From: Tomocerus qinae
Taxonomy: Eukaryota > Arthropoda > Collembola > Entomobryomorpha > Tomoceridae
Length of the DNA: 64,000 bases
Direction of reading: 5' to 3'
Assembly: GCA_020055645.1 (NCBI GenBank)
Contig: CM034546.1
Span: 64,542,001-64,606,000 of the forward strand
Part shown: in pieces, positions 1-57,439 of the stretch
Layout: every line of letters begins with the position of its first letter
Numbering within the stretch: the stretch's first letter is position 1
Position numbers and translations under genes: made by a program
The notes under the pieces: model-generated
What the model saw: only the letters and a program-made list of their open reading frames with translations
What the model was told of the DNA's origin: nothing
The model's database searches: none

Positions 1-1045
1 GAATTCATCCAAAAGGACTTTTCTTTTTTTGATTTCTTCCTTTGACTGACTTCCAATTGGTTTTGGCGATGGTAATTTGGCAGTGCAGTCGTTCAAGGAT
101 TTTAACCAGTACTTGGCAACGGAGAGTGAAGTCACTGCTGCTTGTATGTAGAGGAGTACGACAAATAAGCAGAAAACATATCCGTGGTATGTCAATACAA
201 TGGCCAATAAATATGAAAACCACCATTCTACCAGGATGGTTGGTAGGCATTCTTTCATGAATCGATTGACAGGTCCCATTTTGTGTAGAACGGCAAATGG
301 AGCGACAACAAAGCCCGACAGTATTGTTGTAGGTAGGTAGGTTGCTAGCCAGCAGCCCAATAAATCAAATTTTGGCTCCTTCCACTGCTTGAATTTGCGG
401 AATACTTCTACAACCAGATATCAAATTATTACTATTTACTCGGAGCATAATGCTTCAAGGTTCAATTATTAACACTTAAAATCGAAAATCCTTTATAAGT
501 TCGTTACTTATTTTTATTAATTTATTTCGTGATTGAATTATTAATTTGCATGGACGAAAAATAAAATAATTTTATACCTGGAGAATTATTTTGATGCCAT
601 TATTTTGATATTTAGGGCATGTATCTTTAAATAGTAACCAATTTTCTCTAGTACTAAAATATAAAGTGAAAACTGTACCTTTGTTCCTGTCGTCCATCTT
701 AAACAACCCATTATTTAGCTCCGCAATTACTTTTCCTTTCCATATCAAGTTAAGATTGAAGATATCCGTAATCACTGTTACCAAGAGAAATATCAGATGC
801 AGAAATATCTGAGGTATCGTGAATGTTGGGTCCGGATGAAAATATTCATGGATGAGTCGTGCACCCAAGAATAATGTCACCGAAAGGATTCCGAAAGACA
901 GCCCTAGCCAATTGTAATACGATAGCTTGCTTTTTGTGAAGGAAATCAGGTACGAATTCTTTTTACAATCGAAAGGAAGATATTTAAATTTTGAAGTGTA
1001 CCAATAATTCAATGCGAAAACATTTTTCACTAGCTTAGATGTCAT
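1..1045 (-). CDS. Gustatory-receptor-like 7TM protein, copy A (3' end outside window)
   Basis: The gene is split into exon 1 at 1045-679 (367 nt) and exon 2 from 407 down to the window edge. Intron 1 is GT-AG and phase 1, at the same place as in its neighbours B and C. The visible product starts MTSKLVKNVFALNYWYTSKF and has membrane segments near residues 46-66 and 78-99. A third and a fourth follow in exon 2, after a PWKEP-like motif (here QWKEPK). Exon 2 is open to the edge and closely resembles copy B, so nothing seen suggests a pseudogene. From the family layout I infer an odorant or tastant receptor in sensory neurons, with ligand unknown. The last 130 or so residues, including the family's C-terminal motif, lie outside this window. 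I chose the start because B and C begin with the same MTSK sequence. Confidence 0.75.
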
Positions 1046-3129: not shown

Positions 3130-4420
3130 TTAAAACGTGAGGAGCAAATTTATTGAATTATCCAGAACGGCAGCCAGGAAAGTGAATGTGGTTGATCTTT
3201 CGAGATAGAAGAAGGGCCCAACCTCCACCCGAAGAGGTCGAAGTGATCTTGCCCATGTCTGCATATATCTAGTTTGCATCTTTCCTTTCACGAGATGAAT
3301 GAAGTGACGAGATTCTTCGTTTATCTTGCCTCCATCAGGGAGAAGTATCGACTCAGCTACAAATAAAAACACATTCAAACATGGAAAGAATAAGAAATAT
3401 GGCATAGGGATGACAGAATGAAGGCAGATGTTGGCATAGATTGTGAGCTGGGTGAGGAGGAATGCAATTCCCAAGAGAGTCGGAGCAATTAGAATTGCTT
3501 GATCATTGAGCATTGTAAATGTGAGGGTCATTGTGGTATACAAAGAGCTGACAATGTCATGGAATTCTTGCAATTCATCCATAAGGATTTTTCTTTTTTT
3601 GATTTCTTCCTTTGACTGACTTCCAATTGGTTTTGGCGATGGTAATTTGGCAGTGCAGTCGTTCAAGGATTTTAACCAGTACTTGCCAACAGAGAGTGTA
3701 GTCACTGCAGCTTGTATGTAGACGAGGACGACAAATAAGCAGAAAATGTATCCGTGATATGTCAGCACAATGGCTATCAAATGTGATGGCCACCATTGGT
3801 AAAGAGCGGTTGGAATGCATTCCTTCATGAATCGATTACCTGGCCCGATTTTATGGAGAACTGCAAATGGAGCGACAACAAAGCCTGCTGCAAATGTTAT
3901 AGGTATGTATGTTCCCAGCCACAAGGCGATCAAATCCACTTTAGGCTCCTTCCACGGCTTGAATTTTTGGAATTTTTCTAAGTATTAAAAATTATAAATT
4001 CCAATACATATTTTCCATAGATATTTTCAATACAATTAAAAATGGTTAGCTACCTTTGTTTAGGTCATCCAGGATGAACAATCCATTACTCATTGCCGCA
4101 ATTTCTTTTCCTTTCCATATCAAGTTGAAATTGAAGACATCCGTAATCCCCGTTATCAAGAAGAATATCAGATAAAGAAATATCTGAGGTATTGTGAATT
4201 TTGGATCCGGGTGAAAATATTCGTAGAGGAGTCGTCCACCTAAGTATATTGTAACCGAAAGTATCACGAATGATAATCCCAGCCAATTGTAAAAGGAGAG
4301 TTTGCTTTTTGTGAAGGAAATCAGGTACGTCTTCTTTTCACAATCAAAGGGAAGATATTTAAATCTTGAAGTGTACCAATAATTGAACGCAAAAACTTTC
4401 TGGAGTTGTTTAGAAGTCAT
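3130..4420 (-). CDS. Gustatory-receptor-like 7TM protein, copy B (intact)
   Basis: Exon 1 is 4420-4054 (367 nt) and exon 2 is 3977-3130 (848 nt). They join in phase 1, with donor AAAG/GTAGC and acceptor TTAG, to give 404 residues. Hydrophobic segments are seen at about 46-66, 78-99, 137-160, 188-212, 280-305, 313-333 and 385-404, seven in all. The C-terminus reads GPFFYLERSTTF and then a last helix. That resembles the end of insect gustatory receptors, but the usual TY/QF signature is not present: the position corresponding to TY reads DN. The expected role is a plasma-membrane chemoreceptor or ligand-gated channel subunit, with ligand unknown. It lies between copies A and C in the same orientation. 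The MTSK start is conserved in all three. The family call rests on layout and C-terminal pattern, not on a search. Confidence 0.82.
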
Positions 4421-7185: not shown

Positions 7186-8472
7186 TTAAAACGTGAGAAG
7201 CAAATTTATTGAATTGTCCAGAACGGCAGACAGGAAAGTGAATGTGGTTGATCTTTCTAGGTAGAAGAAAGGTCCAATCTGAACCCGAAGAGGTCGTAAT
7301 GATCTTGCCCATTTCTGCATGTATCTAGTTTGCACCTTTCCTTTTACGAGATGAATGAAATGACGAGATTCTTCGTTTATCTCGGCTCCATCAGGGAGGA
7401 GAATCGACTCAGCCACAAATAAAAAAAATTCAAAAATGGAAAGAAAAAGAAATATGGCATAGGGATGACGGCGTGAAGGCAGATGTTGGCATAGATTGTG
7501 AGCTGGGTGAGGAGGAACGCAATTCCCAAGAGAGTTGGAGCAATAATCATTGCTTGATCATTGACCTTGGTAAATGTGAGGGTCATTGTGGTATAGATCG
7601 AGCTAACAATGTCGAGGAATTCATGCAACTCATCCTGGAGGATTTTTCTTCTTTTGATTTCTTCCTTTGAAAGCTTCCCGAGCGGGCTTGGCGATGGTAT
7701 GTTAAAAGTGCACTTGGTCAAGGATTTTAACCAGTACTTGCCAAAGGCGAGTGAAATCACTGCAGCTTGTATGTAGACGAGGACGACAAGTAAGCAGAAA
7801 ACGTATCCGTGGTATATCACAATAATGGCCAGCAAATGTGATGGCCACCATTGGTAATAAGCGGTTGGAATGCATTCCTTCATGAATCGATAGATTGGCC
7901 CGATTTCATGGAGAACTGCAAATGGAGCGACAACAAAGCCTGCTGAAAACGTTATAGGTATGTATGTTCCCAGCCACAAGGCGATCAAATCCACTTTAGG
8001 CTCCTTCCACGGCTTGAATTTTTTGAACTTTTCTAAGTATTAAATATTATAAATTTCCTCAAGATTACTTCAATACTACAATTAAATTAAAAGATGGTTA
8101 ACTACCTTTGTTTAGGTCATGCAGGATGAACAATCCATTAATGATTGTGGCAGTTTCTTTTCCTTTCCATATCAAGTTAAAATTGAAGACATCCGTAATC
8201 ACCATTACCAAGAAGAATACCAAGTACAGAAATATCTGAGGTATATTGAAATTTGGGTCCGGGTGAAAATATTCGTAGAGGAGTCGTCCACCAAAGAATA
8301 TTGTAACCAGAAGTACCAGGAAAGATAATACCAACCAATTGTAAAAGCATAGCTTGCTTTTCGTGAAGGAAATCAGTTGCGTCTTCTTTTCACAATCGAA
8401 GGGAAGATATTTAAATTTTGAGGTGTACCAATAATTGAGCGCATAAACTTTCTGGATTAGTTTAGAGGTCAT
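7186..8472 (-). pseudogene. Gustatory-receptor-like 7TM protein, copy C (one frameshift)
   Basis: Exon 1 is 8472-8106 (367 nt) and exon 2 is 8032-7186 (847 nt, one base shorter than in copy B). Splice sites and phase match copies A and B. Exon 1 is open, and exon 2 is open to residue 320 or so. There a run of eight A on the plus strand (7421-7428) replaces a nine-base AAAAACACA-type stretch in B, and the frame shifts. Beyond it the other frame continues in full family sequence (AESILLPDGAEINEESRHF to the last helix). All seven helices are otherwise preserved. The change is a single base in a homopolymer, so this is either a very young pseudogene or a sequencing or assembly error. If it is an error, the product is 404 residues like copy B. 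Confidence 0.75.
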
Positions 8473-15063: not shown

Positions 15064-15161
15064 TATAAAATATACTTACTTCAGGTAACTTTTTTAGAAT
15101 GCCTTTGATATTAATCGCAGGTTAACTGGATTTTATTGGTTGCTAAATTGGTCTAAACTTA

Positions 15162-21976: not shown

Positions 21977-22021
21977 ATTAAGTTTAATGAAGATCTATTT
22001 TCCTGTAAATATTAAGCATCA

Positions 22022-32129: not shown

Positions 32130-33426
32130 ATGGCCACTGACCATGCTTTGAAATCTTTCGAAAACTTTTTTGGTTTCTACAATGCAATAAATTGCACACC
32201 TTTTCAGTGGAACGAGAAAACGAAAAGATTAGCTGTGAACACCGACAAACTAACTTGGGCTAACATCTACTTTTGGTGGTTATTCGGTTGTGCTGTAAGT
32301 ATTTATGGAGTATATCGTCTTTTGAAAGAACTCTTTCTCCCAGATGAACATTTTAAAGCTTTCCAAGTCATCCTGTACGTGCTCTACATTCTACTTTTCA
32401 ACATTTCGAGCTTCACCAATGCCATTTTCGTACTCCAACCGAATATTTTTGCACATACCATATCTATGGCCATCCATTTCGATCGGTCACACAAAGGTAG
32501 CTCTTATTTTTGAATTTAATTTGAAATTATGAAAGACATCCATAACCTTTAAAAAAGGATTTACGCAATTTTTTAAAAATTATTTGATTACCCATTTCTT
32601 ATTTTCAGAAAAATATTGTCTGAAAGGAGAAGGTAAAAAGAAATCAAAGAAAACAATCATCGAAAAGGTCGTGCAGTTATTTTTGCCAGCACTATTGATC
32701 GGAAGTGTATGTGGAGGTTTGTTGGCAGTATCCCTGCCTGTTGATCCATTTCAGAGATTCATGTTAGATCATACTCCAGATTTTTATGAAGAACACAAAT
32801 TACTTGTGAAATGTCTCGTTTTCCTCATTATCACTGCCTGTGGAATCATCTTGCTGGGTCCTTTGGTTTTTGGATTCACAATAACACTGGTTTACACCAC
32901 AGGAATGCAATTCTGGCTCTCGGTTCTTGTGGAAAACAACGACACTGAAGAAGGAATGCTGGCGAGAGAAAATTTCAGGAATCGACCGTACAATGCCTTA
33001 ATATTCTACAAAAGCTGCATCGCCGTTAACAATCGAATCAACTTGCATATTGCATATTACGGGTTACCTATTGTTTGTGGATTTGCAACAATGGTTGTTA
33101 TCTTCAGCAATTTTGCTACTGTGAAAATGTACAATATTATCCCAATGCCTGCATATCTGCTAATGCCATTGATCTCAATTACTGTTCATACAGAGTCATT
33201 GCTGGCATTCCCCCTAGCCGCTAAATTCTACATTCATTCAGTCATTTACTTACAAAAAATGAAGAACATTGAAAATAATTACTTAAGGAGGCTGGCAAAA
33301 GGATGTAAACCCATTGCACTCGGAGTTGGACCATTCTTCAATTTGGTTCGCAGTACAACGCTGTCAATTAATGAATTTATCTTGAATAATACAATCAATT
33401 TAATCATATCCGTCGATTTAAATTAA
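32130..33426 (+). CDS. Gustatory-receptor-like 7TM protein, copy D (intact)
   Basis: Exon 1 is 32130-32496 (367 nt) and exon 2 is 32609-33426 (818 nt), phase 1, giving 394 residues. Predicted helices lie at about 45-65, 78-102, 146-165, 188-220, 270-298, 300-325 and 372-392. Motifs shared with the minus-strand copies are CTPFQW before helix 1, RFM after helix 3, PMP before helix 6 and GPFFNLVRSTT before the last helix. A long charged loop (VENNDTEEG) follows helix 4. It is probably a sensory-neuron receptor or channel subunit of the gustatory type, with ligand unknown. A poly(A)-type signal (CAATAAAATC) lies near 33556. It is the first of three plus-strand tandem copies, and E is highly similar along its whole length. 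Confidence 0.83.
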
Positions 33427-35907: not shown

Positions 35908-37202
35908 ATGGCCACTGACCATGCTTTGAAATCTTTTGATAACTTTTTTGTTTTCTTCAATGCAATAAAATGCACACCATTTCAGTGGGACAAGAAAACA
36001 AAAAGATTGTCTGTTAATACCGACAAACTGACTTGGGCTAATATCTACTTTTGGTGGTTATTCGGTTGTGCTGTAAGTATTTATGGAGTATATCGTCTTT
36101 TGAAAGAACTCTTTCACCCAGATGAACATTTTAAAGCTTTCCAAGTCATCCTGTATGTGTTCTTCATTCTCATTTCCAACCTTTCGAGCTTCACAAATGC
36201 CATTTTCGTACTTCAACCGAATATCTTTGCACATACCATATCTACGGCCATCCATTTCGATCGATCACACAAAGGTAGCTCTTATTTTTGAATTTAATTT
36301 GAAATTATGAAAGACATCCAAAACCTTTGAAGAAATTTGCGAAAACATTTTTAATCATTTTGATCCTTCAATTCTCATTTTCAGAAAAATATTGTTGGAA
36401 AGGAGAAGGTAGAAAGAAATCAAAGAAAATAATAATCGAAAAGACCATGGATTTATTTTTCGCAGCACTACTGATCGGATCTGTATGTGGAGGTTTGCTT
36501 GCAGTATCCCTGCCTGTTGATCCATTTCAGAGATTCATGTTGGATCATACTCCAGACTTCTATGAAGAATACAAATTATTTGTGAAATGTCTCATTTTCC
36601 CGATTATCACTGCCTGTGGGATCATCTTGGTGGGTCCTTTGGTTTTTGGATTCTCGATAACACTAGTTTACACCTCAGGAATGCAATTCTGGCTCTCGGT
36701 TCTTGTGGAAAACAACGACACTGAAGAAGGAATGCAGGCGAGAGAAAATTTCAGGAATCGACCGTACAATGCCTTAATATTCTACAAAAGCTGCATCGCT
36801 GTTCACAATCGTGTTAACTTGCATATTGCATATTACGGGTTACCAATTTTTTGTGGATTTGCAATAATGATTGCCATCTTCAGCGATTTTGCTACTGTGA
36901 AAATGTACAATATTATCCCAATGCCTGCATATCTGATAATGCCATGGATCTCAATTATTATTCATGCAGAAACCATCCTGGCATTCCCACTGGCGGCTAA
37001 ATTCTACCTTCACTCAGTAAATTACTTACAAAAGATGAAGAACATTGAAAACAAGTACTTAAGAAAGCTAGCCAAAGGATGTAAACCCATTGCACTCGGA
37101 GTTGGACCATTCTTCAATTTGGTTCGCAGTACAACGCTATCAATTAATGAATTTATCTTAAATAATACAACCAATTTAATCCTATCCGTCGATTTAAATT
37201 AA
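35908..37202 (+). CDS. Gustatory-receptor-like 7TM protein, copy E (intact)
   Basis: Exon 1 is 35908-36274 (367 nt) and exon 2 is 36385-37202 (818 nt), phase 1, giving 394 residues. It has the same start (MATDHALKSF), the same seven-helix layout and the same C-terminal GPFFNLVRSTTLSINEFILN as D. Differences are scattered substitutions, for example KTMDLFFAALL for KVVQLFLPALL in helix 3 and more hydrophobic changes in helices 5-6. No stops or frameshifts are seen. Its close similarity to D and F shows recent tandem duplication. The upstream block with GACGTAGTCAG near 35770 is shared with D (about 31977). Confidence 0.84.
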
Positions 37203-39411: not shown

Positions 39412-39730
39412 ATGGCCACTGACCATGCTTTGAAATCTTTCGAAAACTTTTTTGGTTTCTACAATGCAATAAAATGCACACCGTTTCAGTGGAACGAGAA
39501 AACGAAAAGATTGTCTGTTAATACCGACAAACTGACTTGGGCTAATATCTACTTTTGGTGGTTATTTGGTTGTGCTGTAAGTATTTATGGAGTATATCGA
39601 CTTTTGAAGGAACTCTTTCTCCCAGATGAACAATTTAAAGCGTTTCAAGTCATCCTGTACGTGTTCTTCATTCTACTTTTCAACATTTCAAGCTTCACCA
39701 ATGCTATCTTCGTACTTCAACCGAATATCT

Positions 39731-42700
39731 TGTTACGGGTATCATCACGTCTGTCTAAACCGTGCAATGCCAACAGCAGAGCACAGAGTGAGAAGGACCA
39801 CCAGTTTCAAATGGTAACTCAATGTGGTGGAACTCTCAGAAGGGAAAAACACCAAGCGGAACTAAGAAGCAAGTCAGTGAACATTCGGCCAGCAACCAGC
39901 AAGCAACTCGTGAGTCTCTACTACTCCATCGGTCGGACTGACCTCACTCAATTCGAAATACTTCGGTCAATTAGTTTATTTCTGTTCCCGACATTCATCT
40001 CTTACAAATACTGTTGTAACTAAAATACCATGAATTAAAACTACATTCACAAACATACATTGGATTTTGCATACAACTTGGATCGTACTATCGGCACTGG
40101 CTTTATAGGGAATGGTAAGGCGAGGAACCACTCTCCGATTAATATAATTGCAAAACATATTTCATTTATCTAACTAAACACTAACATAATATTGGCATTG
40201 ATTCATACTATTCTCACATATATACGTATGATACATATCACTCCTGTAATATATGGCGCTCAACGACTAATTACCTTTTCTATTTTTGAGTCTTAGTGCC
40301 AACGGTCTAAAAGTCTAAAGAATTACAATCAAAAAGACGTCTCTGCAAAAAAGACAAAATCTGCTACAAGATACAGCTGTAACGTCATCCAACGGGTTGG
40401 TATATATGAAGTTGACCGTAATACTTGGTCATCATCTTACCAATCCGACACAACACAAGACACACATTCCAACTCAATCAAAATATTGTCTACAATATTA
40501 AAACGTAAGCTACAAAACTATGTCAACATTTTAAAATATGAATCCTATCTCTCCTATTGATTTTATTTATCATAATTTCATTTGTTACGGATTCATAAAA
40601 ATCCTAAACACTTACCTGTTACCAACTTACAGTATATTATATGCACTAAAACGAAATTCCTTAAAAATATCCCTTCATTTTCCAGTCTCCTTTTTCACTG
40701 TAGCATTAACGGCTACAGATTTTACTCAATAAATATATCAAATTAATTTCAAAATTCTTACAGTGCCTGAAACAAACATTAAAATCACATTTGGTATATG
40801 AGTTTCAGATACGCCTACGTCATAGCATTACGGCTAAGGGTGACCGCGACAGTTGGTCATCCACATTAGTTCGTCTTTGCTTCTGCAATGTCAAGCGGTC
40901 AAGGACTTTCACATTCCAATCTCCTACAGTCTGCATATCTACATTCAAGCAATTACTATTCAACATTTCGGATTCTATACATCTAATATTGGCAATCAAC
41001 ATATCTTAACTACATTTGTATAACCAACTGACACTTCTGACCGTATGTTAATAATCCATTTACTTTAAACTAAACTAAATTACTACAGAAAGCTCTATTG
41101 CGTATTTTACCTACCTTCCTAACAATTATATTCATCATTGTCTGTCTCCTACCGACATTTTGGCTCTTGAATATTTAACCTTATCATACTTTTTAGATAA
41201 TTTCTTTATCTTAGAAGCAACTTTTTAGAAACTACGAAACACGTAGTAAAGTAAGTAAAAGACAGCAACTAATTATTTTTGTCTCAGACAGATAATTTAC
41301 ATAGTAGTTTCGTACAAGACTTAACATAGCATATTTAACTAGCAAGCACTGTAAACTTTAATTGCAATCATTCTAATTGTCTTAATATTTCTATTTATTC
41401 TAATACCATGGCCAATGCCAACGATAATTTATTTAACTTACCGTCTCTGATAACAACTATAATTTTTGAGGAATCTATTCCCTTAACTTTACAACTCCTA
41501 CAAAATGCCTTTCATGAAGTTCAAGGTAACCGTAATGTTGGTGACCCTGACTCTTCACTGTCTCCTAATTTACCTAATCAAACACAATTTACAAATACCA
41601 AACAAAATCCTACTCTAACTATTCCTACTTACATTCCAAACTATTTCTTAGCTAACAAACATTTAGTTGAAGTCTTAACCAAACATTTCTTAGGAAGTCG
41701 GCCCTCATAGGCGCCATTGCAGTAACATTCTATATGTTAGCTCCTTATTCAATAGTAAGTCATTACCATTTACTAGTAGGCCAGCACTGTTTGCACATAT
41801 ACATGCTAGCTAATCTTGGTCCTACTTAAACATTTTCAAGCATTTTGAATGCATCATACTATTTTACAACTATTGATAAATATTTTCCATCACAATCAAG
41901 TAAAGATTATGAATGCTAGTCTTTACAATAGTTTACATTCATAGTCTCTTACGACAATTTACTTACAGTCTCTTACGACAATTCAGTAATTATGGTCTCT
42001 CACGACAAATAATATATCAATAACCCCTCACGGCACCTTTACTTATCATTTCTTCTGATATTTTTTCGCTCATAATATAAATAGAAGTTATTCAGGTTAG
42101 TTTTTGGGAACTGCAAAAGTAGTTTTCGATAAAACCAGGAGCAGATGCGTCTCGCTCTGGTAGTGCAGCAGATATTAATCTCTCGCACATTGTAGAAGTC
42201 TTACAGCGGTTTAGCCCTCGTAAGCAGTGCAGCTGGTCAAATGCCACTCGCACAAATAGGGATAGGAATTGAATTCTGACCTCCCATGATAGAATTTTTT
42301 CAGGAAGAATGATTGTAGCCTCGCCTAAATCATTCACTATTTTTCATAGCAAAAAGTCTTAATTTACGTCTAATATTACATCAATAACTCTACTTATGTC
42401 TAATATCATATTAACCTATGTTGTTACGCTTCCAACAGCAAACAACCAATGTCAATCATACATCACATAGTTCATCTGATAGGTCCATTAATACCTAGTC
42501 AGGAAACTAATAATCTTGTACACATTTATTTATTCTTAAATTATAAAATGTTTTGGTCTAATTCTAAAATTGCTAAAAATGTTTCTAAAACTCACTACCA
42601 ACAAAAATTATATTATCATTCATCCTGATTACAGAGCAATTCATCACGGGAAACGCTCTTGAAATTCTTTCTATATTCCTATTTATGTATATACTATAAC

Positions 42701-43620
42701 TAATAAGCACTACTAACATTATATATTATTATTCTAATTGGTCATTCACTAATCTTTATTTTCTGTTATACAGTACAATATTAAAATCAAACAAATTGAA
42801 ATACAGAGAAGAGATACAACTAAAACTATTTGGATCCTAAAACTTCCCGAATTCTGCTGTCTCAGATTTGCAGTGAGCCGCAACAGCTGGCGCACATACG
42901 CATTTCTATAGACATCCAGAATTCACGACATAGATTTAACAACATACTGACATTGTTCTCTACTATCAAGCAGAATTTGACTCAAACTAAAAATTTCTAT
43001 AATTGACATTTAATTTTGCTTCAAATTTCAGAATATGACGTAACAAAATTTTCCAACTGCGGCAATCGTTCCACGATTACCTTGTTTGGGGGTGGAGCAT
43101 GTTACGGGTATCATCACGTCTGTCTAAACCGTGCAATGCCAACAGCAGAGCACAGAGTGAGAAGGACCACCAGTTTCAAATGGTAACTCAATGTGGTGGA
43201 ACTCTCAGAAGGGAAAAACACCAAGCGGAACTAAGAAGCAAGTCAGTGAACATTCGGCCAGCAACCAGCAAGCAACTCGTGAGTCTCTACTACTCCATCG
43301 GTCGGACTGACCTCACTCAATTCGAAATACTTCGGTCAATTAGTTTATTTCTGTTCCCGACATTCATCTCTTACAAATACTGTTGTAACTAAAATACCAT
43401 GAATTAAAACTACATTCACAAACATACATTGGATTTTGCATACAACTTGGATCGTACTATCGGCACTGGCTTTATAGGGAATGGTAAGGCGAGGAACCAC
43501 TCTCCGATTAATATAATTGCAAAACATATTTCATTTATCAAACTAAACACTAACATAATATTGGCATTGATTCATACTATTCTCACATATATACGTATGA
43601 TACATATCACTCCTGTAATA
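39731..43620 (+). mobile_element. Non-autonomous LTR retrotransposon, 3890 bp, inside gene F
   Basis: Two direct LTRs of 521 bp (39731-40251 and 43100-43620) differ at one position that I can find (ATCTAACT against ATCAAACT). The target duplication is ATCT (39727-39730 and 43621-43624). A primer-binding-site-like TGGCGCTCAACGAC starts two bases after the left LTR (40254), and a purine-rich tract GGGGGTGGAGCA precedes the right LTR. The 2848-bp interior has no gag, protease, reverse transcriptase or integrase frame. The longest is a 100-codon frame at 41408-41710 without recognised domains. The 4-bp duplication and TGTTAC start suggest the Gypsy group. The end GTAATA departs from the usual CA. 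Confidence 0.88.
41935..42035 (+). repeat. Short tandem motif in the LTR interior
   Basis: A motif of the type TCTCTTACGACAAT recurs about four times with decay (TCTCTCACGACA, CCCTCACGGCA). It may be a packaging or structural region of the element. No function can be assigned. Confidence 0.45.
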
Positions 43621-44810
43621 ATCTTTGCACATACAATATCTATGGCCATCCATTTCGATCGATCACACAAAGGTAGCTCTTATTTTTTAATTTAATTTGA
43701 AATTATGAAAGACATCCATAACCTTTGAAGAAATTCGCGAAAACATTTTTAATTATTTTAATCCTTCAATTCTCATTTTCAGAAAAATATTGTTGGAAAG
43801 AAGTAGGTAGAAAGAAATCAAAGAAAACCATCATCGAAAAGGTCGTGCAGTTATTTTTGCCAGCACTACTGATCGGATCTGTATGTGGAGGTTTGCTTGC
43901 AGTATCCCTGCCTGTTGATCCATTTCAGAGATTCATGTTGGATCATACTCCAGATTTCTATGAAGAACACAAATTATTTGTGAAATGTCTCATTTTCCTC
44001 ATTATCACTGCCTGTGGAATCATCTTGCTGGGTCCTGTTATTTTCACATTCACAATAACATTATTTTACACTACAGTAATGCAATTCTGGCTCTCGGTCC
44101 TCATGGAAAACAACGACACTGAAGAAGGAAGGCAGGCGAGAGAAAGTTTTAGAAATCAACCGTATAATGCCTTGGTATTTTACAAAAGCTGCATCGCCGT
44201 TCACAATCGTGTCAACTTGCATATTGCATATTACGGAATACCAATTGTTTGTGGATTTGCAACAATGGTTGCCATCTGCAGCGATTTCGCTACTGTGAAA
44301 ATGTACAATATTATCTCAATGCCTGCATATCTGGCAATGCCATTGATCTCAATTATTATTCATGCAGATTCAATCCTTGCATTCCCATTAGCCGCTAAAT
44401 TCTACCTTCACTCTGTAAATTACTTACAAAAGATGAAGAACATTGACAACAAATACTTAAGGAGGCTAGCAAAAGGATGTAAACCCATTGCACTCGGAGT
44501 TGGACCATTCTTCAAGGTGGTCCGCAGTACAACGCTGGCATTTAATGAATTTGTCTTGAATAATGCAACCAATTTAATCCTATCCGTCGATTTAAATTGA
44601 CCTACTGAAGATAGGACCAATATTGATTCAATGCAAACCTTTGTAAATCTTTTTTACGTAGGTTTCGTCCATTGCAATTCATCGCCACCATTATATTATG
44701 TTGCATAATATAATACTGATATATTTGTGATTGTCTATTAAGATTCTAACGTGATGTAGTACATAATATGGTGCTAGATAATGTACATTACTTTTAGTGG
44801 CACTTAATAG

Positions 44811-45259: not shown

Positions 45260-46695
45260 TACAGTATATTTTGTAGAATAAATATCTTTTATGCTATGTA
45301 AGTATTTCAGTTTCAGTATTCTGGATACCTTACTTATATTAGGCAGGAAATTTTTTAACATGGATAATAGGTACGCATGGAACTCTTAAAGTTCTTCTGC
45401 GGGCCACTTTCGCTCCTGCTAATAAATAAATAATGCATTAATGTAAGAAACCAAATGCAAATTATTATTCCTCCTTTAACATGTATTATTTCTATTTGAG
45501 AGTTCTCTTTTCTTACCTATAATATCAACATAGTGGTAGCATTATTTGTTGCATGTTGAAAGAAGAGGTGAATATAGACGATTCCGCAATGCGGATATTG
45601 GGCAACAAACTTTATAGGGACATAGTACCTATTTTTATACACCACTCTCACCAGTACTAGTTAAGGATGCACAATAAATACCTTAGCTAATTTCTTTTCT
45701 TGTAAAACCATCTGTGTATGCTGAACATGAATATTATTTTTGCTTTGAAATGGATTTTAAGCATGCAAGTATTGTAAAAGTAAATATTAGAGTTGTGGTA
45801 GTCTATTACTACCAAACAATAATTACAAAGTACGTACATCAAAACTAAGTAAGCTTACAAAAGCCAAGGATGGTATGTATTCATAAAAAGGAGCAGGGCA
45901 AACCCAATAGTCAAGAAATATAGATAATTTTCTAAAAGCAGGACATGACTTAATTTTAATGTTACCAGTACAACAGAAATTAAAAATGATGCAGAGATAT
46001 TCCCATCGATGTCACATTATAGTACATTATTAAGCTGACTAGTATTTCTACGTTTTTACTGATGACTTCGAATTAAAAATGTATTTCCCTACAAAAAGAA
46101 ACCATCTTAATCTACTGCAAAGTTTTTCATATCATACATTTGGGAATTATTCAATTGCAACACAATAGAACTGATACTACTTTAATGTTCGCTAGTTTGT
46201 ACACCTTTTTTGTAAAATTATAGCAGTATAGTTAAGGTCTAACAGTATTGAGGTCTATTAGAGTATAATATTATAATTGAAAGTTATACTCTTCGGCTCC
46301 GAGTCCGATTTAAATTGTGTTTGAACATTTTCCTACTAGCACTTTATTCTGTGTTCAGTTTGTCTTTCTCTCCACACGATCAGCATTTTCCGTCACCAGA
46401 TAATCGATACATTCACCTACGTGACTTCTTAACAAGCCATCTAAAAAATTTATACATCTATGTTTGTAGTTGGCTCTATTCATGCAGTGAAATATTAAAC
46501 AGAATGGGCACAGTGGCAAACAACTGGCGCTTTATTGTCGACTTCATTTCATACTACTCATAATATCTGGGTAGGAAATTACATTGATGAGTATATAAAT
46601 AGTTACATTTAGTGTTGTCCTGCAGGCTGGATCTAAAACCGCGTTCTTTTATCTGTAGTGTATTTAAATACATCTATAAGGTTAATATCCTGAAA
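45260..46695. other. Spacer upstream of first ionotropic-receptor-like gene
   Basis: The first part is a decayed paralogue of the downstream flanks of D and E (TTCTTCTGCGGGCCACTTTCG, then CTGCTAATAAATA near 45420). An 82-codon open frame at 46315-46563 has no recognised features. No promoter can be assigned with confidence. Confidence 0.4.
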
Positions 46696-48837
46696 ATGTC
46701 ATCGTCATTTAGATCGTATTACATGATATTAAATAAATTATATTTAATACTGTTATTTACAGAAACACAATCGATTATTAATTTCTCTCAGTCTTCTCCA
46801 CTGATCGTCTACCTCAGACAGTACAAACATTGCAATTTTTATTTAACATTTTCCCAAAAATATAAGTCCCACTTGTCAGTAACCCAGCTTTTGATCGAAA
46901 GTCAATTTCAACAACCTTGGTTGATATATCTTACCCGTATAAACGTTAATACGATAATGGAATACAGTACAGACGTAATAAACAACAAATATCGGATAAC
47001 TAAAGAAACTTGCAACATCAACATCATCATCGAACTAAAGAATAGTGAGATATTGGCACTCCTAAATTCAGAGAGAGGATATCGAAAAACAAGTTTGTTT
47101 TTCATTATTTATTTAAGCAGTACACAACTAAATACTCTTTATGATGACAAAATGTTACGATTCAGTACAAAAATATTTATATTGTTCCCATCGCAAAATA
47201 AAACTGAAACGTCAATTAATGCAGTGATGATATATGGGGATGTAATTCAAGATCCGGCGAATTTTAATTACGAATTAAAATCAAATAAATTTCAAGGAAA
47301 CCATCAAAAAATTTTTCCGGAAAAGAGAATAACCAGGATAATAGTGGATACTCATAATTGGGCAAGAAAAAATAAACTAATACGCCATTGTGAACTTTCT
47401 CTAAATATTTTCAAGCATAAGTGTACCAAAGATGAGTTGATAATTTCCCATTTCACCCACTATTTCAATTTCACTCCTGTCAACAGTCACCTTAACAATA
47501 CAGTTTTTGAAGCACCAAATTGTGGATATTTAAGTGTGGAGGCAAATATTGATCCGTTTGAATTGATTTGGAATCATACTATGTACATGGCAAGTAGTAA
47601 AATGAAATTGCTCTATTTTACAAACAAAAATCAATTTGAAGATAAAACAATAATTATTGAATGGGTTACACGCACTTTTGATTTGGAAACTTGGTTCCTC
47701 CTTTTACTTTCCATCTGTGCGACAGTTTGTTGCTTGATAATGAAAATATGGCTAAAGGAACAAAATGGTATTGCAACAATAGTTAAAAGCAAAATAACTG
47801 AAACATTCTTCTACGTTCTAGCTATATTTGCGGGGCAATTAAACCACTCGGATGTAAAATCGAAAGCTCCTTTACTTTTTGCTACTGTCGGACTCCTTTT
47901 TGGATTCTTTTATGAAACTCTAATGTGCTCTGAAGTAATTGTACCTCCACGTCAATTAATTATTCAAGATTTCCAAGAGTTAATAGCGAAGGATTATAAT
48001 TTCTTATACAGAGAGGAAATTTTAGATAAAAATTCCCAAATTAAAAAAACGAGTGTGGAATATAAAATGTTCGAAAAACATAAATTAATGGATCGATTAA
48101 AATCTTCATTCTTGAAATATGACATGAATGAACGCTCTGCTGATTGGTGGTATAATATATTGATGAGATATTTTAATATGCAATCAGTTTTGACACTGTA
48201 TATGAAAGACATGGAGAAACTCTTTGCTCTTATTGATAGAGAGAGGGAAAATGTTGTTCCAATTCTCAAAAAACGAATTCCAACTACTACTTTGGACCAG
48301 TTTGTTGCAATTTTTATGAAGACTGAAAACATTGTGTATCCATTGCCTGAAGCATCGACTATGCGAACACTTGGAATCATGAATTTGTGGAAACTGGAAA
48401 ATCGGGTGGCCAATGTAGTCAAAAATTCTCAACATACTACAAGATTGTACTCAAGATTTAATGGATGCTACTCTGATACATTTGCAGATTTTATGACTCA
48501 TTTATTATGTTCAGGCTTATACTCAGAAATAAGTCATATGCTTGCGTTTACAGTCAATATTGGTGTTTGGAATAATGAAGCATTAATTCAATTTGAAGAA
48601 AGTCGCCCGAAACAATTTAATTCATTTGATTTTAAATCAATTTCGGATTTGTATTTAGTGTTTATGGCATTTAGCATCGTGATATTTTTCACAGAATGTT
48701 TTTGGCGTAAAATTTACTACTGTTGTAAAACTTTAATTTCGTTTATGAAAAACTATATTCAATTAAGGCTAAGAAAAAAATCAAAAATTGTTGTAAAAAC
48801 ATTAATTGTTAAAAGCATGTCTAAAGAGTCTAATTGA
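46696..48837 (+). CDS. Ionotropic-receptor-like protein 1 (intronless)
   Basis: A single exon of 713 residues from the ATG at 46696. The frame is open back to 46612, but 46696 gives a length and signal-like N-terminus matching the paralogue at 52.7 kb. Motifs run in order: N-terminal hydrophobic signal; extracellular part with HFTHYFNFTPVN; RTFDLETWFLLLLS leading into helix 1 (about 328-353); a pore-side hydrophobic stretch; helix 3 with FGFFYETLMCSEVIVPP (about 389-412), then IIQDFQELIAKDY; a second extracellular lobe; and a last helix near 649-674. This is the layout of ionotropic receptors, the variant glutamate-receptor channels used in arthropod chemosensation. I cannot identify glutamate-binding residues, so it is a divergent type. 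AATAAA lies at 48898. Confidence 0.8.
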   Translation: MSSSFRSYYMILNKLYLILLFTETQSIINFSQSSPLIVYLRQYKHCNFYLTFSQKYKSHLSVTQLLIESQFQQPWLIYLTRINVNTIMEYSTDVINNKYRITKETCNINIIIELKNSEILALLNSERGYRKTSLFFIIYLSSTQLNTLYDDKMLRFSTKIFILFPSQNKTETSINAVMIYGDVIQDPANFNYELKSNKFQGNHQKIFPEKRITRIIVDTHNWARKNKLIRHCELSLNIFKHKCTKDELIISHFTHYFNFTPVNSHLNNTVFEAPNCGYLSVEANIDPFELIWNHTMYMASSKMKLLYFTNKNQFEDKTIIIEWVTRTFDLETWFLLLLSICATVCCLIMKIWLKEQNGIATIVKSKITETFFYVLAIFAGQLNHSDVKSKAPLLFATVGLLFGFFYETLMCSEVIVPPRQLIIQDFQELIAKDYNFLYREEILDKNSQIKKTSVEYKMFEKHKLMDRLKSSFLKYDMNERSADWWYNILMRYFNMQSVLTLYMKDMEKLFALIDRERENVVPILKKRIPTTTLDQFVAIFMKTENIVYPLPEASTMRTLGIMNLWKLENRVANVVKNSQHTTRLYSRFNGCYSDTFADFMTHLLCSGLYSEISHMLAFTVNIGVWNNEALIQFEESRPKQFNSFDFKSISDLYLVFMAFSIVIFFTECFWRKIYYCCKTLISFMKNYIQLRLRKKSKIVVKTLIVKSMSKESN

Positions 48838-49008: not shown

Positions 49009-50985
49009 TTACTTTTGGATAGCATTAACCCCAGAAGTTTTGGGAAAGGGGGCCAAAAATAGTTCTTCTTCAGATTTTCTCTTGATCCATTCAGTGTAAC
49101 AGGATACATCGGTGTAAACACTAGGAAATGACTTAGAACTGGATAAAAGGGATAATATGCCGCAGCCATTCTTGTTTCCTCTATCATTGCAAACGAGTGC
49201 ACTTCCTGGGTCTGCTTTACATGTTGGATGCCAAGCATCGCTGGTGACACACAAACTACAATGTCCACATGCCCGACCCCCATATATTCTAACAGTTGTT
49301 GACTGTAGGGAAAGGCGTGGACTTCCGTTGGAATTTAATGTCTCCGATTCAGGCCATCCGGCAACTGATCCAAATCCAGCTATAGAAATACAAAACGTAT
49401 TTCAATTGTAAATAAATAATACTTATGAAGTACTAATTATTTACAATTCAAATACGATTATTAAAATAAAATAAAATAGACTTTATTTTAACCTCTTGAA
49501 GCATCGAAATCGTTTCTAGGCAATGATAATGGAGAGACCCATTCATTGCAATCATCGTGATTGCCAGTTATCAATAAAGGATTTGCCAACTTTAATAGAG
49601 CTATATCATTTTCGTGAGAAATTGGTTGATAGTCTTCGTGAATTATTATCTTCTCAACATAGATTGTTTGTTCCGTTCCATCAAAGCTGTATAAATAATT
49701 AATAACATAGTTGTTATCGATTTTCTGAATGTGTGCACACTGAAAATACATTATTGTCGTTGTTTTGTGGTAAACAAGTATTTCACTCCAAAACGACTGT
49801 ACTCTATTGTCTTTTGCTGTTTACATTTTTGACAGCAAAAACTTTAGATAATATAGTGCTATTCGTAGAGGAAATTAATAATGACATCGACAATTGAGAT
49901 ACTCCAAAACACGGAACTCCGCTCTACTTTTTCAAAATCCAAATTGAGTTATCCTTTGTATCTTCATTTTAAAAAAATTATTGGACACGAACCTGTTTAA
50001 ATTAGTATCTCCAGCCAGTGCAATAATATTCGTGGGTCTGATTGACAAATCTTCATTCTCAACACAATTGGCTGCAAAAGGAACATAATTATGTGCAGTA
50101 ATACAATCATGTTGATGTGTCTTTCTAATAGTAAGTACGGCATAGCTAGTGCATACATAATATTATGTATGCTTAATAATAACGATATCATGTTATATTA
50201 AATGAAACAATTGGCAACTCGCTCATAAATATTTCAATTAGCAAATTTTCCGCATAAGGAAATTAGATAGGACTGTCAGCGCCAAAAACGTGACGTTACC
50301 ATCATAATAATATATTTCCAATGCATTGTCATAAAATGCACAAAAGTGTTTTTCCAATAAGCACTTCTTTGTGCACTTATATTCCGAATTTTTTCATTTT
50401 ATTGCTTGCGTCCTCAGTGATTGAAATAAATATAGTTTTATGACAACTTAAACCCATTTAGGAAGCTATATAATTTCTTAAAACTTATTAATGCTACATA
50501 AAATTTTTATTTTGTAAGAAAATGATTAGGGTCAATTGGTTAGTAAAGATATTAAAAATGAATATAAAATTTTATTTAATACCTGTTGTAACGACAAAGT
50601 TTTCATCATAGATCATTCCAGAACAGAAAAACACATTTGTAGATCCATCAGCGGAATTCAGCCTAACAAGGGCAACCTGATGAGGAAATTCAGTGATATT
50701 CGTAAACCGACATTCATTGTTAGCACCTGAATATTTTCATAGAAATGAAAATGACACGAGCATATAAAATTGATTGTATTATATGTACAAATAAATTTAA
50801 TTTCTATTAAATAGCAAACAACTGAATTCAAAACAGTATCATTCGAAATCCAATGTAAATCTAAACCAACCTTGTTTTATGTTGATAGGGTGAAGTCTAT
50901 TTCTGCAATCCGAATTGAGACCAAAGGTCAAAAATAATGAAGAAAAGTGATAAAGAATTACAAGTGTGTACACAGATGTATCCAT
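49009..50985 (-). CDS. Secreted serine protease homologue, catalytically dead
   Basis: The five exons are 50985-50871, 50726-50583, 50071-49993, 49686-49493 and 49379-49009. All introns are GT-AG with matching phases, giving 300 residues. A signal peptide (MDTSVYTLVILYHFSS) comes first. Trypsin-fold landmarks follow: FPHQVALVR, FFCSGMIYDENFVVTT, NIIALAGDTN, HENDIALLKL, GFGSVAGW, and PSVYTDVSCYTEWI at the end. The His motif (normally TAAHC) reads TTANC, Asp is kept in DIALL, and the Ser motif (normally GDSGGPL) reads ADPGSAL. Both His and Ser are therefore lost, and proteolysis is not expected. I infer a binding or regulatory pseudoprotease. The gene lies between two ionotropic-receptor-like genes on the opposite strand. 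I found no clip domain or RIVGG-like activation site. Confidence 0.85.
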
Positions 50986-52705
50986 TTTGATATCTGTAAG
51001 GCATATCACAATCAGTGCTTGAAAACATATTTAGTGACTATCAAAATTAACCTTTTTTATGATTAAAACTACCCCAAAAACAAAGCAGCACTCTTTTGTT
51101 TTTATTACTCAATATACAAAAATGACAATTATATTGTATTGTGATTACAAGGGAAGCTTCATTTACAATATTCCAAATATGATTTTTATCCTGAAAATCA
51201 ATGCTGTAGGTTTTCTTCAATATTGAAGACTGGTCTGTCTAGGCACCAGAATCTCAGAAGGTATACCTTTTAGGGAATAACTGATAATATTATGTAACAA
51301 TACACAATCCCGAAATAATTATATTCAACAATATTCCATGTCTAACTGAATAATTTTGAACGGCTAACAGTGTCTGTCAGTCATTACTACTCCGTATGCA
51401 AATACATTCTAATGAATTACATATTATACAAGATATTAACAATGTAATTATCGTTAGCCAAATGTGTGGAAATGGTCATATTCATGCATTCAATTATTCA
51501 TTGCACTTATTTAACAAAAAATGTAACAATAAGCGACAAATGTTATGGTAATTGTTAGCAGACGTACAGCTGCATAGTGAACTCTTTGCAATTTTCCAAT
51601 TTTTGAAATCCATCTATGGTATTGTTACTTTTATGATAGCAGTCATGATAAAATGGCTTGTTACTTTGTAGCAGCCATGATAAAATGGCTTGTTACGTTT
51701 TAATATTGAGCAAACGATATGTATATTTATTACATAGAATAGGAGCTCTCGATGGTTTGGTTTGTCTCCCTCCAGACATGAAAAATTTTGGATAAAAGAG
51801 AATTCATAAATATAATTTTAATAAATATGAATAATATTTTATTATGTATCAGTTCTCGAATGCCCAACGTTAGAGTTTTGCGAAACTTCATTATAGATGC
51901 TTAGTCATAATATGACTAGGAATCTACTAATGTTCGTGTATGTATTAAATAAATATTCCGTTTTTGGTTTAATAATGTTTCAGTTCTCAAGCGAAGTTAG
52001 AAGCACGTTAAGTTGGGAAATAAAGCTTGAAGTTACGGGTATATTGTGTATAGTATAATAAATAATTTATTTTAGTAGTTGGAGATAGTTTGGAGGTATC
52101 TCAACTCTGGATAAATGGATCGTTATTTTGTACGTATTAAAGTACTAGAATACTTAAAACTCGTCTTTTAGGGCTTATCAACCCTGGTTTGGTGATTTAC
52201 TTTTCCATGATTTCTTCCAAATCTCATTTTGTTTAAATTACACTACTTTTTCTGCGGTAGATGGCAGTTTTTTGATAATGATGGGGGCTCGAGAGACATG
52301 GCACTGACGTTAAGACTGGTATTAAATTTGAAGGAACGATTATTTCCTTCTCATTTGTACACCGAGAATATTATATTTACTCATTCTTGGCCTTCCGCCA
52401 ATCGATCACAAATTCATCATATAGCATGCAATGTGACCCTAGAAGACTATACAGAATTATCTAAACTGCCGCCGACTACTCATATCCTAAATTATTTAAT
52501 GCTACAGAATGTTGCAAGCTAACAAATGTTCCTATCAGTTACATCTACCATTTAATTTAACATACGTGTGCTACAATACCATTAGATATTTCCAACTGGA
52601 GTGAATTGTACAATCCGTAATTCCACTGAAAATAAATCGACAAATTTTGTCAATTCATATTTTATTTGCATTCAATAGTGTCATAGGTTTTTATGAATAA
52701 CTAAC
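50986..52705. other. Spacer between protease homologue and second receptor
   Basis: Contains the direct pair of GTAACAAGCC-type units at about 51630-51700. A 97-codon open frame (52229-52522) has no recognised domain and no similarity that I can see to the equivalent region of the first receptor. Otherwise AT-rich, with nothing supported. Confidence 0.4.
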
Positions 52706-54829
52706 GTGACAATGTTATCAGTGCCGATTGGTAAATTGTACATGATATTATGTGCCTTTGATTTGTTACTGATCTCGGAGAGAAGGTATTCAATAGCCTT
52801 GTCTCAATCCAATATAGTGGCAACTTATCTAAGACTAAGAAGGTACAAAGACTGTAACTGTTATTTGACGTTTTCCCATAAGTATAAATCCCATGTTGAT
52901 AAATTTTTGATAGAAAGTCAATTTCAGCAACCATGGTTAATTTACTCTACCAATAAAAATGACAGTTCCCTAAAAGAGTACAGTACAAAGATAATAAATA
53001 GTAAAACGCAGATAAAAAAAGAAATATGCAACATCAACATAATTATTGAACTAAAGAAAAAGGAAATCTTGACATTATTAACTACCGGGAGAGGAATCCG
53101 AGAACATAGTTTGTTTTTTATAATTTATTTAAAATACAGACAGCTAAATTCTACTTATAATGAGAAAATGTTACATTTTAGTACCAAAATATTTATAACA
53201 GTTCCATCACAGAACAAGAAAAATTCCTTGAAGCCTACAAGCATTATAATTTATGGTACCACAATTTTCACTTCCGTGAATGATCATGAACTGAAACCAA
53301 ATGAGTTAGATCAGTTGAAAATTTCTATGGATAAAAGCAAAGCAAATATTTTAGTTAACACCTATGATTGGAATAAACCACAGAGTAAGTTTCCAAATTG
53401 TAAACTAACCTTAAATTGTGCAGATTACTGCGACTGTGACGAGGTCATACTCTCGCATTTCACCAATTACTTTAATTTCACTCCCAAGAATAATCAACGC
53501 AAATTGGCGGGAGAAAAATATTGTGGCTATTTGAATTTAAGAGAAAAAATCGACCGTTTTGAATTGGATTGGAGCAAGTATTTATACATAGGAAATAAGA
53601 AAATGCATTTAATGTATTTTAATAACAAAAATCAGTTTGAAGAGAAATCAATCGTCGAATGGATTACACGTACATTTGACACGGAATCCTGGTCCCTGTT
53701 ATTACTTTCTTTTTGTGCGACGGTCATTTGTTTAAAACTTCGATTATTAGCCAAGAAACAAAAAAATAGTTCATCGGTAATTAAAAGCAAAATTGGAGAG
53801 ATAGCTTTTGACATGCTATCAGTTTTATTTCGACAAAATCATGCGGATTTAAAAACTAACTTTTCTGTACTGTTTGCTTTTGCTGCTTTACTTTTTGGAT
53901 TCTTTTACGAGACTCTAATGTGTTCGGAAGTAATTGTTCCCCCTCGTCAATTAGTTATTCAAGATTTTAAAGAATTAATAGCAAAAGATTACAAATTCAT
54001 ATATAAAACCGACGCTTTGAATAAGAGTTTGCAGAGTATAATTAGCAATGATAGCGTGGAGTACCAAATGTTTGCAAAGTTTAAATTGCTGCATAGAATG
54101 AATTCATCGTTAATTCCAAGTAACATGAAAGATCGTTCTGGAGATTGGTGGTATAAATTATTCAGGAAATACTTGAACCAAATGGCTACATCTAAAGAGT
54201 ATGAGAAAGACATTGAAAGCTTTTTCGCATATCTTGATGCAACAAGCAAAGAAAACATTTTTGAACATGCTGAAAAACTTCTTCCGACTTATATCACTTT
54301 AATTACTGCAACGTTTATGAAACGTGAAAAAGTTGTCTTAGTGGTATCTCGAGAATTAAACGACCGATGGCCTGGCCTTGTAAACTTGTGGAGACTTGAA
54401 GAACGAGTAGTAAATACCGTCAAAAATTCACATCATGTTGTAAAAACGTTTTCTAAATTTCGAGGATGTTATTCAAACAAACTTTTACAATTCACGATTC
54501 GTTTGAAAGATTCAGGAATAATTGATGAAATAATTCGCTTAACCATATTGCAAATGAATGTTGCCATTGAACATGGAAATTCGTTAGTGAAATTCGAACA
54601 ACGTCAGCCAACAGCATTTGATTTGCAATCTTTACAATTGATTTCCAATTTATATTTCATTTTTCTTTCAGTTAGTATTATTGTATTTTGTATAGAAATC
54701 TACAGCAATTCTTCAGTTAATATTTTCCCAACAATTGTAAAATGTATTTCATCACCAACACAAAATAGGAAAAATGACGATGTTGTGGAAATAGATACTA
54801 TCATTGTCCAAAGTCAATTGAAAAATTAA
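52706..54829 (+). CDS. Ionotropic-receptor-like protein 2 (intronless)
   Basis: A single exon of 707 residues, a clear paralogue of the gene at 46.7 kb over its full length. Shared blocks include ESQFQQPWLIY, ICNINIIIEL, SHFTNYFNFTP, a W-TRTFD-E-W element before helix 1 (about 325-350), and FGFFYETLMCSEVIVPPRQL at helix 3 (about 385-411). A last helix follows near 645-668. The extracellular lobes differ much more than the channel part, which would suit different ligands. It probably acts as a ligand-gated channel subunit in sensory dendrites. Whether it pairs with its neighbour or with a co-receptor is not visible. It starts with MTMLSVPIGKLYMILCAF, a signal-like sequence. No frameshifts are seen. 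Confidence 0.8.
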   Translation: MTMLSVPIGKLYMILCAFDLLLISERRYSIALSQSNIVATYLRLRRYKDCNCYLTFSHKYKSHVDKFLIESQFQQPWLIYSTNKNDSSLKEYSTKIINSKTQIKKEICNINIIIELKKKEILTLLTTGRGIREHSLFFIIYLKYRQLNSTYNEKMLHFSTKIFITVPSQNKKNSLKPTSIIIYGTTIFTSVNDHELKPNELDQLKISMDKSKANILVNTYDWNKPQSKFPNCKLTLNCADYCDCDEVILSHFTNYFNFTPKNNQRKLAGEKYCGYLNLREKIDRFELDWSKYLYIGNKKMHLMYFNNKNQFEEKSIVEWITRTFDTESWSLLLLSFCATVICLKLRLLAKKQKNSSSVIKSKIGEIAFDMLSVLFRQNHADLKTNFSVLFAFAALLFGFFYETLMCSEVIVPPRQLVIQDFKELIAKDYKFIYKTDALNKSLQSIISNDSVEYQMFAKFKLLHRMNSSLIPSNMKDRSGDWWYKLFRKYLNQMATSKEYEKDIESFFAYLDATSKENIFEHAEKLLPTYITLITATFMKREKVVLVVSRELNDRWPGLVNLWRLEERVVNTVKNSHHVVKTFSKFRGCYSNKLLQFTIRLKDSGIIDEIIRLTILQMNVAIEHGNSLVKFEQRQPTAFDLQSLQLISNLYFIFLSVSIIVFCIEIYSNSSVNIFPTIVKCISSPTQNRKNDDVVEIDTIIVQSQLKN

Positions 54830-56787: not shown

Positions 56788-57123
56788 TTATAAATGTGGG
56801 CAGTTTACGTTATACAGTTCATGTATTATGAGTCTGCCGCTTGTATCAGGCGTATGTGAATGTTCAATGGTGATTTCTGCTCCTGATCCTTTGCGGTACG
56901 TCAACCGGCCATGGCAATTTTTTCTATTTTCACACCTCCAAATACTCCTCCCATCTTTCGTGTTTGCTGTAAATGTATATGCGAAGCCTTCCTGCACTAA
57001 CTTATCTTTACCTCTTTGGGATTTTACGAATGTTACAGCCATAGTATACAACTCTAAGTTCTGCAGAAGACTGAAGTGATGGCTTCGAAAGTTGTATGTT
57101 GTATTCCGTACGAGTAAAGACAA
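56788..57123 (-). CDS. FLYWCH-type zinc finger protein of the MULE
   Basis: A 111-codon frame whose likely start is the internal Met at 57042 (MAVTFVKSQRGKDKLV), giving 84 residues. The FLYWCH pattern is complete: F32, Y49, W62, C64, C70, H88 and H90 in the long-frame numbering, reading IWRCENRKNC and then EHSHTPD. FLYWCH fingers bind DNA or proteins. They are known in chromatin proteins and at the N-terminus of Mutator-like transposases. The location inside an element with a 9-bp duplication favours a leftover N-terminal part of a transposase. The frame stops right after the finger and the catalytic domain is absent. It may still be expressed and compete with a full-length transposase, which is inference. 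Confidence 0.65.
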   Translation of the reverse strand: MSLLVRNTTYNFRSHHFSLLQNLELYTMAVTFVKSQRGKDKLVQEGFAYTFTANTKDGRSIWRCENRKNCHGRLTYRKGSGAEITIEHSHTPDTSGRLIIHELYNVNCPHL

Positions 57124-57439
57124 TGAGATAAGAATATGATTGCATAAATTAGTTTTGTATAATCATTTAACATACAGTATACATCATATCTATCCTATCT
57201 ATAGTTGTCATGGCTTACAGTAAGACCAGTTTACTTATACGGGAGGACCAGTTTACTTTTACGGGAGGACCAGTTTGTTTTGCGGGAGGACCAGTTTACT
57301 TTTGCGGGAGGACCAGTTTGTTTTTCGGGAGGACCAGTTTACTTTTACGGGAGGACCAGTTTGTTTTTCGGGAGGACCAGTTTACTTATGCCCAAAAGAC
57401 CAGTTTACTAAGACCAATTTACATACGACCCATTTTTAG

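Follow-up and report, generated by a model that had tools for sequence, protein, structure and literature searches.

Insertions of long terminal repeat (LTR) retrotransposons that knock out members of multigene families are a known kind of event, and LARD-like and TRIM-like are the terms in use for LTR elements that are not autonomous. A third system close to ours comes from bdelloid rotifers, whose LTR elements Juno and Vesta carry, according to the main text of PMC5408684, a DEDDy 3'-5' exonuclease of the RNase D/Rrp6 type as their third open reading frame (ORF3). The locus we set against these systems lies in the springtail Tomocerus qinae, in a 64,000-nt stretch of contig CM034546.1 (positions 64,542,001 to 64,606,000) that we call the window. 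Six copies, A to F, of a two-exon gene family are found there, and inside exon 1 of copy F sit 3,890 bp, in the sense direction (window positions 39731-43620). Our reading, to which we give a probability of about 0.9, is that a young LTR element without a working pol gene inserted into exon 1 and disrupted copy F. The parts of the broken gene and of the element are as follows.

39412..39730 (+): first piece of copy F exon 1, 319 nt, ending with the first ATCT (39727-39730); homologous to 32130-32496 of copy D and 35908-36274 of copy E
39731..40251 (+): 5' LTR, 521 nt, TGTTACGG...CTGTAATA; T at 40171 most likely derived
40252..40265 (+): primer binding site TATGGCGCTCAACG, at the equivalent position in 13 other full-length copies
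41279..41710 (+): gag-region remnant, including a 123-aa open frame (41339-41710); 38% identity to frame g3 of a longer relative (L035), E 3e-13, internal stops
42141..42335 (+): pol remnant, from between RNase H and the integrase zinc-binding domain; 45% identity to amino acids 289-354 of the longer relative's pol frame (L034), E 2e-8, internal stop
42615..42659 (+): remnant of the pol C-terminus, amino acids 740-754, 80% identity, E 0.003
42718..42816 (+): remnant of the N-terminus of an exonuclease gene, 60% identity over 35 aa, E 2e-4
43082..43099 (+): polypurine tract TTGTTTGGGGGTGGAGCA, with these 18 nt unchanged in 11 of the 13 further full-length copies
43100..43620 (+): 3' LTR, 521 nt, differing from the 5' LTR at one position
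43621..43672 (+): second ATCT (43621-43624) and second piece of copy F exon 1 (43625-43672, 48 nt), running to the donor GTAGCT
43783..44600 (+): copy F exon 2, 818 nt including the stop, open

An earlier reading of the letters without database searches, the sequence-only reading, had claimed a 3890-bp split with a perfect ATCT duplication, two exon pieces that sum to 367 nt as in the five other copies, and LTRs that differ at one position in 521. All of this holds, with ATCT on both sides of 39731-43620 and T40171 against A43540 as the sole LTR mismatch. Two near-identical direct LTRs and a short target duplication are the marks of an LTR-retrotransposon insertion, and the primer binding site after the 5' LTR and the polypurine tract before the 3' LTR stand where such an element has them. 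The primer binding site, which we take to be tRNA-Lys-like, differs by one or two bases in some of the 13 other copies (L022 and L030 with corrected boundaries); the two exceptions in the polypurine tract are L021, one G short, and L033, different as delimited. From F alone a 5-bp duplication, ATCTT, could be read. It was rejected because in each of the 13 other full-length copies the duplication is a perfect 4 bp and the LTR ends are the same, beginning TGTTACGG and ending GTRATA (L022 after boundary correction); these copies come from the host assembly, which comprises 334 Mb in 115 contigs.

The two exon pieces, 319 and 48 nt, make 367, which is also the length of exon 1 in A, B, C, D and E. 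The figure extends to 21 of 27 further family loci in the same genome (L044-L070), where 22 full-length exon-1 matches include 21 whose donor GT falls exactly at 367 nt, four of these 21 having a second candidate donor as well. The six misses comprise four loci without an exon-1 match, one with a partial match elsewhere and one with a full match that lacks a qualifying donor. With a 367-nt exon 1 across the family, the sum in F is strong evidence for an ordinary exon there before the insertion.

The rest of the gene is intact, as the sequence-only reading had it: the 110-nt intron, its splice sites and the 818-nt exon 2 are in place, and the joined pieces read as 394 amino acids with a single terminal stop, as in D and E. 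The break falls inside codon 107 of 394. Reading through it gives 106 native residues and 97 others before a stop within the 5' LTR, and the length of the insert, not being a multiple of 3, shifts the frame as well. Copy F thus counts as a disrupted gene of very young age, and its function would have been lost. We picture a non-autonomous element of about 3.9 kb, derived from Ty3/Gypsy and most likely copied with reverse transcriptase and integrase supplied by an autonomous relative, which would have integrated sense-wise into exon 1 and duplicated ATCT. The assembly holds a single F copy (F exon 2 matches itself at 100%, D and E at 85%, and then come a partial match at 58% and one at 54%), and no empty, uninserted copy of F was found in its 334 Mb. 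The insertion may be polymorphic in the population.

The age of the insertion can be approached in two ways. At the position where the LTRs of F differ, other aligned LTRs read A, except that the two LTRs of L032 are gapped in one alignment and read T in another, poor one; T40171 is therefore most likely derived and later than the insertion. The closest copy, on another contig (C5:6864983-6868871), differs from the F insert by five substitutions and two single-base indels. Among the copies with a base at the site, that of F is private at three of the five; at 40171 it is private save for L032, and at the fifth, 41840, the state is ambiguous because of gaps. Relative to the silent divergence that separates F from D and E, taken per lineage, the LTR pair (1 in 1,042 sites) comes to 0.86% (0.02-4.8%), and the four F-derived substitutions in 3,890 to 0.9% (95% interval 0.25-2.4%). 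These figures would place the insertion within roughly the last 1% of the time since D, E and F split. At a fly mutation rate of 2.8e-9 per site and generation, which may not be the host's, the insertion would be about 0.35 million generations old. On the scale of the gene family the insertion is young, by the divergence of its LTRs and from its sister copy, so that the 'young' of the sequence-only reading stands. Its claim that the gene had 'just' been broken has to be qualified, since several copies are as young as the F insert; about 1e-3 substitutions per site need not be recent in population terms.

The alternative that survives best, improbable as we think it, is that F was already dead or dispensable and that the element hit a pseudogene. 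Losses are frequent in this family: a stop is contained in 26 of 142 exon-2 match rows (counted by eye), and copy C is frame-shifted. Against it, no second lesion was found in the 1,185 coding nt of F, where the sequence-only reading had named further inactivating changes as the sign of a gene that died first. Private codon changes, once 8 codons that differ in all three of D, E and F are set aside, divide into replacement and silent as 23:23 in F, 20:21 in D and 26:14 in E, with no excess of replacement in F (23:23 against 46:35 for D and E together, p=0.47). Where at least 90% of the remaining 20 among 21 exon-2 proteins agree on a residue, F differs in 6 of 73 such columns, against 3 of 72 in D and 7 of 73 in E. 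The open frame and the D-like and E-like ratios therefore give no sign that F died long before the insertion, and a long-dead pseudogene as target is rejected, by a test that has little power for death shortly before the insertion.

A shade less probable still is that the insertion is tolerated, some function being kept either by partial splicing out of the insert or by a 3' LTR that drives an N-truncated protein of 282 residues from the ATG at 43642. This is the first in-frame ATG behind the insert and lies just behind it, the 3' LTR is open in its frame from 43408, and weak frame-keeping splices exist on paper. The truncated form would miss the first two hydrophobic segments, and no listed splice restores the native 394 amino acids.

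Several points do weigh against a clean and recent loss of F through the insertion, and they are best taken together. On paper, nine GT donors join in frame to the exon-2 acceptor, the best of them matching 6 of 9 consensus positions, and 18 donor/acceptor pairs would remove most of the insert in frame, using acceptors that to our reading have no clear pyrimidine tract. F may have died shortly before the element arrived, or may have carried a regulatory lesion. The four F-derived substitutions may in part be older than the insertion. Mobilisation in trans rests on the common LTR, primer site and remnants, and the frames of the longer relative are themselves broken. Finally, the insert is known from the assembly alone, but a mis-join is very improbable given the exact 4-bp duplication, of the same kind as in 13 other copies, the 367-nt arithmetic and a derived base private to the 5' LTR of F.

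For disruption of F by a young element, then, the comparison with other young LTR insertions in multigene families is close: the target duplication, the near-identical LTRs and the one broken exon among open paralogues are the same, and we find no structural difference. The element itself calls for an amendment to the sequence-only reading, which rightly saw a young LTR element in one gene copy; it is non-autonomous and one of at least 14 full-length copies. Its LTR gives at least 45 match rows in the assembly, from which we examined 13 fetched full-length copies and F, several solo, partial or longer ones having been fetched as well. Across the 14, the LTR pairs show no mismatch in five copies (among them L021, with a 1-nt indel), one in three (F, L024 and L026), and then 3, 3, 4, 7, 8 (L030, with corrected boundaries) and 17. 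Two of four solo LTRs have a perfect duplication, and the interiors of the 13 others match that of F at about 87-99.8% in their longest pieces. Several copies with one pol-less structure, some of them very young, make this a non-autonomous LTR family. No receptor-family pieces were found at E 1e-3 beside 20 other fetched element loci (L021-L040).

The F insert has no working pol, with reverse transcriptase, RNase H and integrase in order, and holds only remnants of the gag region, of pol and of the exonuclease gene; an autonomous element is thereby rejected. Its LTR and its remnants, in their order, link it to a relative in which gag, RNase H and integrase domains are present. Because pol survives only as remnants, we call the element derived from Ty3/Gypsy and non-autonomous, not an autonomous member. 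Like LARD-like and TRIM-like elements it keeps LTRs, primer site and polypurine tract, has no working pol and occurs in several copies with near-identical LTRs; it differs from them in the recognisable remnants of gag region, pol and exonuclease, and so its parent clade can be named.

That parent lineage is more interesting than the break of F, which is real and of known kind. The longer relative (L034/L035) runs from C1:21636493 to about 21646435, about 9.9 kb, and its LTRs are 93% identical to those of the F family over the last 412 LTR positions. Its broken frames encode a gag domain, RNase H and integrase; the space from integrase to the 3' LTR is occupied by an exonuclease domain followed by HRDC, and there is also a weak zinc knuckle, below the cut-off. 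RNase H and then integrase lie in a single 754-aa frame, and no reverse transcriptase domain was found in the pieces scanned. The frame g3 that matches the gag-region remnant of F sits upstream of the gag domain. Searched against PDB, the exonuclease piece finds RRP6 chains (best E 1.5e-8) and EXOSC10 (1.7e-4), and the HRDC piece EXOSC10 (6e-4). This exonuclease copy is frame-broken, with Y in place of D in its last motif, and an acceptor-like TTTTCTGTTATGCAG precedes its frame. In F the remnants of the gag region, of two pol stretches and of the exonuclease N-terminus follow the order of the relative; the F family is therefore a decayed derivative of an exonuclease-bearing Gypsy lineage. Presumably it was trans-mobilised, and the common sequences point to that clade as the source of the machinery.

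Across the genome the exonuclease piece gives 92 match rows, of which 53 lie in frames 400 aa or longer, and the integrase piece 132 rows (from 131 scored of 649 candidates); rows are not elements, and a single element can yield two. In 49 of 54 cases an integrase row of at least 42% identity is followed, on its own strand and no more than 3 kb downstream, by an exonuclease row; of the 78 rows below 42% none is, even when the distance is stretched to 6 kb. The five exceptions include two partial matches and one row whose exonuclease row lies farther off, 6.1 kb downstream. Among the exonuclease rows in frames of 400 aa or longer, 20 follow pol frames of 1,000 aa or more. At least 50 of the 92 exonuclease rows go with such an integrase row. 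The figure is a lower bound because C1:42306472 (L077), one of the 42 without, shows integrase-end sequence upstream on direct reading.

Among the 42 are decayed remnants within copies of the F type, and also four open copies, L071 (580 aa), L072 (579), L074 (579) and L075 (496). Ratios of nonsynonymous to synonymous substitution rates (dN/dS) among these four lie between 0.05 and 0.23 in six pairwise comparisons, which points to constraint in the ancestral lineages of the copies, not to selection on each copy. The expected catalytic D-E, D and Y-D residues are present in all four, with what we presume to be their usual roles in the DEDDy exonuclease motifs. In L071 and L072 Pfam finds DNA_pol_A_exo1 and then HRDC, an Rrp6/EXOSC10-like arrangement; in both, a stretch of 3.9 kb takes in a match to the gag region, a short remnant of pol and the exonuclease, in that order, so that the greater part of pol must be absent between them. 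L074 and L075 have a pol remnant ahead of the exonuclease, and no gag match in their 3-kb stretches. A distant relative, L073, has integrase and then a 674-aa frame of exonuclease and HRDC.

The likeness to Juno and Vesta is in the enzyme, an RNase D/Rrp6-type exonuclease as an extra gene of LTR retrotransposons. The springtail frame also has HRDC and a C-x2-C...H...C motif; it is the mark of a single Gypsy clade, in an animal that has 7tm_7 genes, and stays open even in copies where most of pol is gone. The word HRDC is absent from the main text of PMC5408684, the only directly relevant source, as judged from that text, in the literature on chemoreceptor genes broken by transposons, on the genomes of springtails and further arthropods and on exonuclease-bearing LTR elements; no report of an HRDC-bearing exonuclease in LTR elements was found in the open-licence literature. 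Tentatively, and with more doubt than confidence, we suggest a Gypsy clade with an Rrp6-like exonuclease as permanent third gene, some members of which shed most of pol and kept the exonuclease under purifying selection. The enzyme would help its element to replicate or to evade RNA surveillance, even where others mobilise that element, and the element that broke F would be a further step, in which the exonuclease was lost too.

The genes among which the element landed have their own question. The other copies in the window are these.

1..1045 (-): copy A; exon 1 679-1045, exon 2 from 407, running beyond the window edge
3130..4420 (-): copy B; exon 1 at 4054-4420 and exon 2 at 3130-3977, without a break in the frame; exon 2 shares 24% identity with that of D
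7186..8472 (-): copy C; exon 1 8106-8472; reading frame lost through a deletion of 1 nt where exon 2 is rich in T
32130..33426 (+): copy D; exon 1 at 32130-32496 and exon 2 at 32609-33426, both open
35908..37202 (+): copy E; exon 1 35908-36274, exon 2 36385-37202; open throughout

The deletion in copy C, which the sequence-only reading had not mentioned, may be a true lesion or a homopolymer or assembly error. Close upstream of C lies a near-perfect foldback (8757-9886), with 524-nt arms that are 99.6% identical when inverted and an 83-nt spacer. In the assembly at least 142 family rows match exon 2 (there were 1,304 candidates, of which 142 were scored), and contig C1 has 137 of these by a count made by eye. 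That contig makes up 42% of the assembly; the other five rows are on four small contigs, and two of the five score like C1 rows and may be duplicates.

The sequence-only reading had called these genes receptors, which is plausible and is not borne out by the databases. Neither single proteins nor a 22-member profile had a credible match in Pfam or PDB, 7tm_7 and 7tm_6 included; the weak PDB entries were five chlorophyll-binding chains (E 1.2-1.6), and the scan of 22 members gave ten scattered weak families, each in one or two of the 22. Hydropathy gives copy B about seven hydrophobic segments, once overlapping peaks are merged by eye, and places the last of them at the C-terminus; the picture is less clear in D, E and F. 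Like the insect gustatory and odorant receptor superfamily (7tm_7, PF08395), the family has proteins of about 400 aa and a large tandem array, and the segments of B, about seven, may be a further likeness. It differs from that superfamily in having no Pfam or PDB match, and whereas PF08395 is found in at least 79 places in the host genome (best E 5e-12), none of the 79 listed overlaps the 142 listed family rows (compared by eye). Our best guess is that these are membrane proteins and probably chemoreceptors.

The window holds further features. Two direct repeats of 2.6 kb (15161-17759 and 22021-24619), 99.8% identical, have ends that look like TC...CTAG between A and T, an arrangement seen in Helitrons; between the repeats lie two charged, repetitive frames on the minus strand (20409-21152 and 21473-21994). 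Three long open frames, 46603-48837 (+, 744 aa), 52697-54829 (+, 710 aa) and 59733-62327 (-, 864 aa), bear some resemblance to divergent ionotropic receptors; of the two scanned against Pfam, the 744-aa frame has no match and the 864-aa frame none above the cut-off. A trypsin-domain fragment (49488-49820, -, E 1.6e-8) and a FLYWCH zinc-finger frame (56788-57162, -, E 1.2e-11) are also present, and Rfam gave no hit in the window at gathering thresholds.

For the gene family, the break of F is a dated loss in a large family that can be tested by polymerase chain reaction. For the elements, the role of ORF3 enzymes is left open for those of bdelloids in the main text of PMC5408684, and a Gypsy clade that keeps an RNA-exosome-type exonuclease across much divergence offers a way to ask what such enzymes do for a retrotransposon.

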